Program-made: the position numbers and the translations under genes
NCBI RefSeq assembly: GCF_007743815.1
Contig: NZ_CP036265.1
Coordinates: 2,994,823-3,058,822, forward strand
Direction of reading: 5' to 3'
DNA from: Alienimonas californiensis
Lineage (GTDB): Bacteria > Planctomycetota > Planctomycetia > Planctomycetales > Planctomycetaceae
DNA: 64,000 bases
Part shown: piece by piece, positions 48,729-52,171 of the stretch
Layout: the number at the start of each line of letters is the position of its first letter
Position numbering within the stretch: the first letter of the stretch is position 1
The notes under the pieces: generated by a model
Told to the model about the DNA's origin: nothing
The model's database searches: none
The model's input: the letters and a program-made list of their open reading frames with translations, nothing else

Positions 48729-48794
48729 ACGGGGCGATCAGTGAGCCGAAGAGAACGACACGCTCTTTCGCCCCCGCCGACGGACCGGCCCCCC

Positions 48795-49601
48795 ATGACG
48801 ACCCTCGCCCCCGCCGCCGACCCCGCGGTCGACCCCGCCGGCGCCTCCGCGACCGCCTGGCCGGACGCGACCGCGGCCCTGCGGGCGGAGAACGACGCCC
48901 TCAAGGCCCGCCTCCGCGACGCGGAGCGGCTGGCAGCGGTCGGGCAGCTGTCCGCCTCCGTCACGCACGAGTTCAATAACGTCCTGATGACGACGTTGAA
49001 CTACGCCAAGATCGGGCTGAAACGCTCCGACGACCCGCACGTCGTGAAAGCCTTCACCCGCATCCTCGAAGCCGGCGAGCGGGCCGCGAAGATCAGCGAG
49101 TCGCTGCTGTCGTTCGCCCGGGGCGGCGAGGAGCGGCGGGACACCGTGCGGTTGGCCGGCCTGCTGGAGGACGTGCTCGTCCTGACCGGCAAGGACCTGC
49201 AGGCGCACCGCGTCCGCACCCAGACCGACGCGAGCGGCGATCCGCGGGCGAGCGTTTGCGTCCCGCAGGTCCAACAGGTGTTGGTCAACCTGATCCTCAA
49301 CGGCCGGCAGGCGATGCCGGAGGGCGGGCTGATGACCTTCACCCTGACCGACAACGCCGCCGACGGCACCGCGGAGATCAGCGTCCGCGACACCGGCGCC
49401 GGCATCCCGCGGGAGGCGCTGCCCCGCATCTTCGAGCCGTTCTACAGCACGAAAACGCTCGGCAACGGCTCCGGCGGCGGCGGCGGGCTGGGCCTGCCGC
49501 TCTGCCGCGACGTCATCGAGGCCCACGGCGGCCGCATCCGCGTCGAAAGCGCCCTCGGCCGCGGGACCTGCTTCACCCTGAAGTTCCCGCGGGTCGGGTG
49601 A
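48795..49601 (+). CDS. Soluble histidine kinase without sensor domain
   Basis: The product has 268 residues. A short coiled-coil (about 24-48) leads directly to the H-box ASVTHEFNNVLMTTLNYA, with H58 as the phosphorylated residue. Then come the N-box QVLVNLILNGRQAM, G1 RDTGAGIP, the F-box FEPFYSTK and G2 GGGGLGLPL. This is the HisKA_NtrB-type dimerisation/phosphotransfer plus HATPase_c core with no TM, PAS or GAF domain, and no receiver. A GTG at 48741 could add 18 residues. No response regulator is next to it, so its signal and partner must be supplied elsewhere. Confidence 0.88.
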   Translation: MTTLAPAADPAVDPAGASATAWPDATAALRAENDALKARLRDAERLAAVGQLSASVTHEFNNVLMTTLNYAKIGLKRSDDPHVVKAFTRILEAGERAAKISESLLSFARGGEERRDTVRLAGLLEDVLVLTGKDLQAHRVRTQTDASGDPRASVCVPQVQQVLVNLILNGRQAMPEGGLMTFTLTDNAADGTAEISVRDTGAGIPREALPRIFEPFYSTKTLGNGSGGGGGLGLPLCRDVIEAHGGRIRVESALGRGTCFTLKFPRVG

Positions 49602-49606
49602 GAACC

Positions 49607-49688
49607 GTAGGCGAGCGGTGGGCGTGAGCCCTCCGTGTACTCACTCGGCTTCGATGACACGGAGGGCTCACGCCCACCGCTCGCCTAC
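49607..49688. repeat. Perfect 32-bp inverted repeat carrying a stop codon
   Basis: The arm GTAGGCGAGCGGTGGGCGTG continuing to CCGTGT (49607-49638) faces its exact complement at 49657-49688 across 18 bases. The TAG of the right arm, read on the minus strand, is the stop codon (49687-49685) of the zinc-ribbon protein. The left arm begins five bases after the histidine-kinase stop. Confidence 0.9.
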
Positions 49689-49930
49689 TGCATCAGCAAC
49701 GCCCAGATCGTGCCGAGGACGCCGATCACCCCCAGCACGAACATCCATCGCGGCACGTTCGCTCCGGCAGGTCGTCGGCCGGGAGTGATGTAGTCGCCGC
49801 AGGACGGGCAGACGTCGGCCTCCTCGTAGACCGGCTCGCCGCAGGACGGGCAGGGGAGCTCCTCCCCGGCCCCGTCGTCGTACGGCTCGAAGTCTTCGCC
49901 GGAGTCGTCCGGATCGTCGTCCCACGGCAT
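49685..49930 (-). CDS. Small zinc-ribbon membrane protein
   Basis: The product has 81 residues. The N terminus is acidic (about 1-22). A rubredoxin-like zinc ribbon follows (CPSC at 27-30, CPSC at 41-44). A single TM helix spans about 61-79. This is a common tail-anchored layout in planctomycetes with no known function. It lies 10 bases after the aldolase gene stop and is probably co-transcribed with it. Confidence 0.8.
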   Translation of the reverse strand: MPWDDDPDDSGEDFEPYDDGAGEELPCPSCGEPVYEEADVCPSCGDYITPGRRPAGANVPRWMFVLGVIGVLGTIWALLMQ

Positions 49931-49940
49931 CGGCGAGGCC

Positions 49941-50933
49941 TTATTGCTTCTTGCCGCCGGACTTTTTCGCTCCGGCTTTCTTGGCCCCGGACTTCCCGCC
50001 GCCGTTCTTCGCCATCAGTTCGAGGACCTTCTCCGCGATCGCGGTGACGTAGGGGTCGTCCTTCAGCGGCGGGGTGGGGGGCAGGTCGCCCGCCTTCTTG
50101 CCGGCCGGTTTGCCGATCGGGCCGAACTTCGGCGGGGGGTTGAACGCCTTGGGGGAATACAGCCCTTCGGCGTCGCCGTCGTAGACGCCGCGGAAGGCGG
50201 TGTTTCCCACGAGATCCGCGTCCGGGTAGTGGAACCGGGGGTCGTCGAAGCCGAGCTTCTGCTTGAGCTCCAGCAGTTCGCGGGTGTGCCGCTCGGCGAG
50301 GTAATCGATCGGGCCGAGCTGCTTGGCCAGCATCAGGATGCGGCAGTAGGCGTCCAGCACCTCGGTCTTCCAGTACGCCTCCTCCAGGCTGGGGCCGAAG
50401 GAGATCGTGCCGTGGTTCTTCAGGATGATGTGGTTCGTGCCCTTCAAGAAGGGCAGCACGGTGTCGGCGAACTCCTGCCCGCCGGGCGTCTCGTAGGGGG
50501 CGAACGGGGTCTCGCCGAGGAACACCTCGACCTCCGGCAGCACGCCCTGTGGGACCGGCTCGCCGGCGACGCTGAAGGCGGTGGCGTGCGGCGGGTGGCA
50601 GTGCACGCAGGCCTTCACGTCCGGCCGGTTCTTCATGATGGACAGGTGCAAGAGGATCTCGCTGGTCCGCTTGCGCTGGCCGTAGATCTGGTTGCCGTCC
50701 AGGTCCACGCCGCAGATGTCCTCGGGGGTCATGAACCCTTTGCAGATCATCGTGGGGCTGCACAGCACCATGTTCTCGCCGACGCGGACGGAAATGTTCC
50801 CGTCGTTCGCCGCGGCGTAGCCCCGCTGGTAGACGCGGCGGCCGATCTCGCAGATCTCCTCCTTGATCGCGTCGTCGTTCAGTTCGGGGGCGTCGTTGGG
50901 GAAGTCGACGCGGAGGTGCTCGGGGATCGCCAT
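49941..50933 (-). CDS. Class II aldolase/adducin family protein with microcompartment-like C-terminal tail
   Basis: The product has 330 residues. The aldolase core (about 20-225) has NDGNISVRV, the zinc-binding H-C-H (H111, H113 in HCHPPHA), H174 in LKNHGT and the acidic SEILLH segment. It resembles the L-fuculose/L-rhamnulose-1-phosphate aldolases that planctomycetes use in their carbohydrate microcompartments. After the core come a Pro-rich linker (about 285-292) and a predicted amphipathic helix (PYVTAIAEKVLELMAK). A basic Gly/Lys tail (KKAGAKKSGGKKQ) ends the protein. Linker plus amphipathic helix is the form of encapsulation peptides. No shell-protein gene lies in the window. Confidence 0.9.
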   Translation of the reverse strand: MAIPEHLRVDFPNDAPELNDDAIKEEICEIGRRVYQRGYAAANDGNISVRVGENMVLCSPTMICKGFMTPEDICGVDLDGNQIYGQRKRTSEILLHLSIMKNRPDVKACVHCHPPHATAFSVAGEPVPQGVLPEVEVFLGETPFAPYETPGGQEFADTVLPFLKGTNHIILKNHGTISFGPSLEEAYWKTEVLDAYCRILMLAKQLGPIDYLAERHTRELLELKQKLGFDDPRFHYPDADLVGNTAFRGVYDGDAEGLYSPKAFNPPPKFGPIGKPAGKKAGDLPPTPPLKDDPYVTAIAEKVLELMAKNGGGKSGAKKAGAKKSGGKKQ

Positions 50934-51067: not shown

Positions 51068-52171
51068 CTACAAGCGGTCGACGCCCGGGGTGAAGTCGCT
51101 GTCAGCGGACAGCGACAGGCAGAACTCGCACAGCAGGTCGGCGGCGGCGTCGAGGTCGTCCATGGAGATCACCTCCACCGGGCTGTGCATGTACCGCAGC
51201 GGGATGCCCACGATGCCCGTTGCCGGGCCGTTGCGGGTCAGCTGGATCGCGTTGCCGTCGTTGGAGGCGCCGCGGCTGAGGGCCGACACCTGCACCGGCA
51301 GGTCGTGCTCCTTGCCGAGCTTCGTCAGGCTGCGGAACAGCGGCGTGTTGATGTTCGGTCCCCGGAAGGCGACGGGGCCGCGGCCGATGCGGACGTCGCC
51401 CACCTCGCCCTTCTCCACGGTCGGGCAGTCGGAGGCGTGCGTCACGTCCACGGCGATGCCGACGTGCGGGTCGATCCGGTGGGCGGCGGTGTGGGCGCCC
51501 CGCAGGCCGATCTCCTCCTGCACGGTGGAGACGGCGAAGATCGCCGCCTGCGCCCCGTTCTTGGAAGACTGCCGGGCGGCGGCCCGGCGGGCGGCTTCGA
51601 ACACCACCCACACGCCCACGCGGTCGTCCATCGCGGGCCCGGCCAGCAGCCCGCCCCGCAGCGCCCGGTAGCCCGGCCGCAGCGTGATCGGGTCGCCGAC
51701 CGCGACCAGTTCCAGGGCCTCGGCTTTGCCCTCGACGCCGAGGTCCACCCACAGGTCCTTCACCTCGGGCACCTGCTTGCGCTCCTCGGCGCCCAGCAGG
51801 TGAATCGCCTTCCGGGCGATCACGCCGGCGACGGTTTCGTGGGCGCCGTGCACCTCCACGGCCTGCCCGATGAGCGTCTGCACGTCCCACCCGCCGACGG
51901 CGGAGACCCGCAGGAAGCCGTCGTTGTCGATGTGCTGCACGACCAGGCCGATCTGGTCGCAGTGCCCGGCGAGCATCACCCGCAGCTTGTCGGTTCCCAA
52001 CCCATCTTTGCCGGCGTTCACCGCTGCCGTCAGGTTCCCGTGCCAGTCGGTAGAGACCTTCCCCCAACCCGCGGCGTACTCGGCGACGACGGCCTGAACC
52101 CGCTCCTCATACCCGCTGGTGCCGGGGGTGGTGAGCAGCCGGTCGAGAAACGCGCGGGCGTCGTCGTTCAT
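51068..52171 (-). CDS. M42 family metallopeptidase (glutamyl aminopeptidase type)
   Basis: The product has 367 residues. M42 peptidases are di-metal, self-compartmentalising aminopeptidases. Metal ligands are seen in AGHCDQIG (His, Asp), LAGPAMDDRVG (bridging Asp), VQEEIGLRGA (catalytic Glu and ligand Glu), VDVTHASD (Asp) and RYMHSPVE (His). The domain order is peptidase, PDZ-like insertion (about 70-160), peptidase. It is not linked to other peptide genes. The first bases of the preceding intergenic stretch show nothing clear. Confidence 0.93.
   Translation of the reverse strand: MNDDARAFLDRLLTTPGTSGYEERVQAVVAEYAAGWGKVSTDWHGNLTAAVNAGKDGLGTDKLRVMLAGHCDQIGLVVQHIDNDGFLRVSAVGGWDVQTLIGQAVEVHGAHETVAGVIARKAIHLLGAEERKQVPEVKDLWVDLGVEGKAEALELVAVGDPITLRPGYRALRGGLLAGPAMDDRVGVWVVFEAARRAAARQSSKNGAQAAIFAVSTVQEEIGLRGAHTAAHRIDPHVGIAVDVTHASDCPTVEKGEVGDVRIGRGPVAFRGPNINTPLFRSLTKLGKEHDLPVQVSALSRGASNDGNAIQLTRNGPATGIVGIPLRYMHSPVEVISMDDLDAAADLLCEFCLSLSADSDFTPGVDRL

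Follow-up and report, generated by a model that had tools for sequence, protein, structure and literature searches.

A class II aldolase in Alienimonas californiensis, probably orphaned by loss of the PVM-type microcompartment

The aldolase gene and its surroundings

The window analysed here is a stretch of 64,000 nucleotides of the Alienimonas californiensis genome (NZ_CP036265.1). A sequence-only reading had proposed a class II aldolase gene at 49941-50933, with a linker, a helix (about residues 294-309) and a basic tail after the core, and our analysis agrees on all of these. The gene reads from an ATG at 50933 to a stop codon at 49941-49943 on the minus strand, and the Aldolase_II domain is matched with a Pfam E-value of 1.9e-47. 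The following features are used below.

49941..50933, minus strand: class II aldolase CDS of 330 aa, orthologous to the cargo aldolase of PVM-type microcompartments (Pfam and ortholog comparison)
50334..50861, minus strand: Aldolase_II core, residues 25-200 (Pfam; invariant columns)
50544..50546, minus strand: codon 130, Gly here and Cys in 101/101 other planctomycete orthologs (ortholog alignment)
50208..50219, minus strand: codons 239-242 (ADLV), a CDLC-type motif in 101/101 other orthologs, both Cys gone here (ortholog alignment)
50055..50228, minus strand: C-terminal extension past the conserved core, residues 236-293, with a Pro-rich linker at its end (comparison and AlphaFold2)
50001..50054, minus strand: relic encapsulation-peptide helix, residues 294-311 (profile score, AlphaFold2, homologous helix in a shell-bearing ortholog)
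49944..50000, minus strand: Lys/Gly-rich tail, residues 312-330, found in this species only (missing from its sister)
49685..49930, minus strand: small zinc-ribbon gene directly 3' of the aldolase, with a homolog near the PVM aldolase in 10/80 loci
48741..49601, plus strand: histidine kinase, convergent with the aldolase; in several relatives, homologs border the PVM locus on its aldolase side
51068..52171, minus strand: M42 peptidase, on the side where relatives have their shell genes; same order in the sister species, elsewhere not near PVM loci

The AlphaFold2 model of the protein (56 orthologs) has a confident core, a low-confidence linker and basic tail, and a C-terminal helix at residues 294-311 (pLDDT ∼81 in the 301-310 block). 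A shell-bearing ortholog that was modelled likewise has a matching layout, with the helix at 288-304. Residues E92, H111, H113 and H174 are invariant columns among the orthologs, and by analogy with E. coli FucA we take them to be the catalytic and metal residues; the class II aldolase fold and the metal and catalytic residues expected of FucA are thus found in this protein. Nothing in the gene points to a pseudogene. The protein scores below the NCBIfam equivalog cut-offs (123.8 bits against 250 for FucA_Meth, and 71.9 against 400 for TIGR01086), which tells little about its substrate since a shell-linked ortholog also fails the FucA cut-offs. Among the 149 ORFs of at least 150 aa in the window, only this one has a lysine-rich C-terminus (seven of the last 20 residues; 49944-50000).

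Orthology with the PVM cargo aldolase and absence of the shell

Erbilgin 2014 is reportedly the original paper on the PVM-type locus. In Stratiformator (G013, putative S. vulcanicus Pan189T) this locus reads DeoR, PduL, BMC-H, BMC-H, AckA, BMC-P, a putative membrane protein, AldDH, BMC-P, an unknown protein (with a peptide-like N-terminus), BMC-P, aldolase and LDH. Such loci of Planctomycetes and Verrucomicrobia are described in PMC4207490 and PMC8217296. Two unnamed PVM-locus proteins (L145:7241-7945 and L145:9679-10236) have no NCBIfam match: one has a peptide-like N-terminus (ESKVIDDIVAAVLSQLKAS) and relatives in 64 of the 80 loci, and the other resembles a small membrane protein and has relatives in 37.

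The Alienimonas aldolase shares ∼60-75% identity with its orthologs in the family. The ortholog lies no more than 10 kb from BMC-H in 45 of the 50 shell-bearing relatives that have one (the usual distance is ∼5-7 kb). Four of the five exceptions are fragmented assemblies with the aldolase and BMC-H on separate contigs; the fifth (G028) has no further PVM gene in the 20 kb around the aldolase. G028 (locus L146) belongs to genus g28, and in the closed genome G060 of that genus the aldolase (L188, G060:C1:3391500-3394500) and BMC-H are ∼0.95 Mb apart. This genus offers a natural example of an unlinked PVM cargo, in which the shell, a canonical peptide and all three of the cysteines discussed below are present. 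By sequence comparison, then, the Alienimonas protein is an ortholog of the planctomycete PVM cargo aldolase, related by descent to the class II aldolase encoded in the PVM locus itself.

One shell-bearing relative (G020:C380; L187:570-1184) has a further, more divergent class II aldolase of 271 aa, with 37% identity. It ends in an encapsulation-peptide-like helix (ESLVDVITRVVISALR), is without C130 and C242, and is encoded on a contig without the BMC-H genes that are present elsewhere in that genome.

The genome of A. californiensis is closed (one contig of 5,475,215 bases). Whole-genome profile searches, in which the E. coli and Synechococcus controls were positive, found no gene for BMC-H (PF00936) or BMC-P (PF03319) in it. 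There is likewise no PduL gene (PF06130) in this genome and no counterpart of the BMC-type AldDH, the best match having 28% identity over part of the protein (E-value 5e-6); Aldolase_II is represented by a single gene. The earlier reading had seen no shell, aldehyde dehydrogenase or phosphotransacylase gene in the window, and a tblastn search of the window with the PVM gene sets of two relatives accordingly matched the aldolase alone and no other BMC gene or remnant, while all PF00171 matches of the genome lie outside the window. PF00936 is also absent from the sister species (G001, putative A. chondri LzC2T, 5.3 Mb). A shell locus elsewhere in A. californiensis is ruled out by the whole-genome PF00936 and PF03319 searches with their working controls, and an assembly gap is unlikely to be the cause of the missing shell, because the genome is a single contig and the independent assembly of the sister is PF00936-negative as well.

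In a genome that encodes no shell protein, no PduL and no BMC-AldDH, the tail cannot be addressing the enzyme to a PVM-type shell. The suggestion that the enzyme is an unlinked shell cargo therefore falls: the reading had itself held that a genome lacking shell genes would refute it, and the search that it proposed, for shell genes and a second class II aldolase, returned neither.

BMC-H is present in 161 of the 170 genomes and in 57 of the 58 genera surveyed in the family, Alienimonas being the only one of these genera without shell genes. The nine BMC-H-negative genomes comprise the two Alienimonas, three that are 64-66% complete and four that are fragmented. The four fragmented genomes (G068, G139, G140 and G166) were considered as shell-less genomes with an aldolase and rejected, as their contigs break inside the PVM locus beside the aldolase: each has BMC-P, and three have AldDH as well, between the aldolase and the point where the contig stops. 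In the tree the Alienimonas aldolase is nested within the clade of the family, and related families of the class also carry shell and aldolase, so the absence of the shell in Alienimonas is a loss. Its branch is long (1.37, against a median end branch of 0.19); published trees have long branches for the genus Alienimonas in general. In open-access papers, the passages found on Alienimonas and microcompartments do not discuss an encapsulation-peptide homolog without a shell, and we found nothing on point there about orphaned cargo with encapsulation peptides.

Homologs of the neighbouring kinase border the PVM locus on its aldolase side in Stratiformator, in G033 and in eight of 80 other loci, in every case convergent and at a distance of 3.0-5.5 kb. 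Since its zinc-ribbon and histidine-kinase neighbours are common to some PVM loci, the aldolase is probably still at the old locus, and the simplest reading would be that the locus was deleted around it. The flank synteny is seen in a minority of relatives only, which counts against such a loss in place. The M42-peptidase side has no synteny with the PVM loci of relatives, so rearrangement is likely there. Gene order also diverges between the two Alienimonas genomes just beyond the zinc-ribbon gene, and a rearrangement therefore separates them at that point. A rhamnulokinase-like gene (L142:16461-18032 and L157:9303-10847) is separated from the aldolase by ∼5.4 kb in the sister species and by ∼240 kb in A. 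californiensis.

The C-terminal helix and other altered residues

The PVM cargo orthologs of shell-bearing relatives have a classical C-terminal encapsulation peptide at their end (EALVKAITDQVMAALGK-like), made up of a linker followed by a helix with the pattern D-x-E-x-L-V-x-x-I-T-[DE]-Q-V-[LM]-A-A-[LM]. The corresponding helix is DDPYVTAIAEKVLELMAKN in A. californiensis and DDPLVAAIAQKVVELMKQG in the sister species, and the modified form common to both is DPxVxAIAxKVxELM. When the whole protein was scanned with a profile of the encapsulation-peptide columns from 89 distinct orthologs, no other window scored as high as residues 291-310, and shuffles of residues 241-330 did as well in just 0.06% of cases. 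The score itself (-4.9) is far under that of every relative (34 to 56), although the high scores of the relatives are partly by construction, the profile having been built from the same 89 sequences. T300A, Q302K, A305E and A306L replace residues that are kept in 88, 82, 76 and 80 of the 89 relatives, respectively. The hydrophobic moment of the helix is not significant alone as evidence for an encapsulation peptide. A linker followed by a C-terminal helix of 15-20 residues, the layout expected by descent, is found in the Alienimonas aldolase (helix 294-311). Its sequence marks this helix as a homolog of the C-terminal encapsulation peptide of the PVM aldolase, and it sits at the same place in the protein; it is a recognisable but eroded peptide. 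The Lys/Gly part of the tail described earlier is not conserved: the sister gene stops after the helix.

The helix does not appear to be drifting freely. Between the two Alienimonas species its dN is 0.136 and its dS 0.783 (18 codons), compared with 0.076 and 0.379 for the core, and a Fisher test on rounded helix counts from these 18 codons of one species pair gives P = 0.009, which argues for continuing constraint. A dN/dS as low as that of the core favours a kept function over a dead relic, and so counts against reading the helix as a relic. The helix may accordingly have been re-used in a shell-free cell and kept by selection, with aldolase tetramers self-associating into a cargo-like condensate or the helix binding a partner enzyme. 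Beside the low dN, this possibility draws on the pattern of change: V296, I299, V303 and a hydrophobic residue at 307 are kept, and T300, Q302, A305 and A306 are changed alike or similarly in both species. But the evidence is 18 codons from one species pair, no partner is known, and in one species a basic tail has been appended right after the helix, so that this end tolerates change; we consider re-use a tentative and, on balance, unlikely explanation.

The changes are not confined to the helix. In a comparison with 101 other planctomycete orthologs, nearly all from shell-bearing genomes, seven of the 115 columns that are at least 95% conserved are altered in both Alienimonas (F39Y, C130G, I192V, C239A, C242V, G250V and T300A), and such columns are enriched in residues 236-330 (4/11, against 3/104 in the core; Fisher P = 0.0014). 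All 101 orthologs have the cysteines C130, C239 and C242, which are gone in both Alienimonas, while six other strongly conserved cysteines are retained there (P about 0.01). The unlinked orthologs of shell-bearing G028 and G060 have kept the canonical helix and all three cysteines, so the changes track loss of the shell and not unlinking. A shell-less relative (G041) has a class II aldolase (38-39% identity) without the extension and without the three cysteines. The correlation between shell loss and these residue changes is suggestive only, because it comes from a single loss event on a long branch. That C130, C239 and C242 form a metal or redox site that matters only inside the microcompartment lumen is a doubtful proposal; if it were true, the orphan aldolase would report which cargo features depend on encapsulation.

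A probable orphaned cargo enzyme

Taken together, we think it very likely that this protein is the signature aldolase of the PVM fucose/rhamnose microcompartment, orphaned after Alienimonas lost the shell and the rest of the locus. Alienimonas would have lost the shell and the remaining PVM locus genes while the aldolase stayed. Free in the cytosol, the enzyme would probably cleave a 6-deoxy-ketose-1-phosphate (e.g. L-rhamnulose-1-P) to DHAP and lactaldehyde, and soluble dehydrogenases may then convert lactaldehyde to lactate. The helix would be the ancestral encapsulation peptide, altered after shell loss and with no shell to bind; the constraint still acting on it suggests that it contributes in a minor way to solubility, self-association or packing.

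A rhamnulokinase-like gene is kept in both Alienimonas species. An AldA-like dehydrogenase reaches 497.2 bits (cut-off 500), and the best match of another dehydrogenase is the lactaldehyde dehydrogenase model; these rhamnulokinase-like and dehydrogenase genes are under the NCBIfam equivalog cut-offs. A search with PF06134 found no RhaA-type isomerase in Alienimonas, and reading the neighbourhoods of the RhaB and AldA-like genes by eye revealed no recognisable sugar isomerase. As no RhaA-type isomerase was found (with PF06134 the only profile searched), a rhamnose/fucose role of the aldolase is unproven. The aldolase might instead have been kept for another pathway, e.g. salvage of 5-deoxyribulose-1-phosphate, a radical SAM by-product; an aldolase of this salvage route from Bacillus thuringiensis (6btd/6btg; PMC6079011) is among the nearest solved folds, and the lack of RhaA fits as well. 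We find this improbable, though, given that the rhamnulokinase-like gene is retained in both species and that YgbL and FucA structures match about equally, so that the fold does not discriminate.

The Lys/Gly tail is found only in A. californiensis: the sister gene stops straight after the helix (ending in VVELMKQG), and the KKAGAKKSGGKKQ stretch is confined to the former species. When its DNA was inspected for an origin by slippage of a repeat, only an 8-base repeat was found. The earlier thought that this tail binds nucleic acid or a membrane, and so sets a new role for the protein, could draw on its seven lysines in 20 residues, a C-terminus unique among the 149 long ORFs of the window, but we judge it very unlikely for a tail that is absent from the sister species and from the C-termini of other relatives. 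Least credible of all is that the tail still targets the enzyme to some compartment that has escaped recognition, such as an encapsulin or a highly divergent shell: the helix is still constrained, but PF00936 and PF03319 have no match with controls working, both species have substitutions at residues typical of a functional peptide, and PduL and the BMC AldDH are gone too.

Microcompartments are usually viewed as guarding the cell from a toxic aldehyde. If the aldolase was indeed orphaned, Alienimonas resembles a natural shell knock-out that has kept the enzyme producing the aldehyde, in a family where the organelle is otherwise near-universal. Comparing the orphan with its encapsulated orthologs would show which cargo residues serve life in the shell only, the helix positions and the three cysteines being candidates, and opens the question of how the cell copes with the aldehyde after shell loss.

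Compared with the PVM-type BMC aldolase, the Alienimonas protein is orthologous and matches it in domain, linker and position of the C-terminal helix. It differs in that its genome is without shell, PduL and BMC AldDH, the conserved Thr, Gln and Ala-Ala are gone from its helix, the three cysteines are lost, and it has gained an extra Lys/Gly tail. With the unlinked g28 aldolases (G028 and G060) it shares a gene position far from any shell locus (∼0.95 Mb in G060), whereas g28 has shell genes, the canonical peptide and the three cysteines. With free E. coli FucA (1fua), YgbL (6vop) and B. thuringiensis 6btd it shares the class II core fold and the metal and catalytic residues at ∼25-31% identity, but the solved chains (∼203-215 aa) end near the core and have neither linker nor helix.
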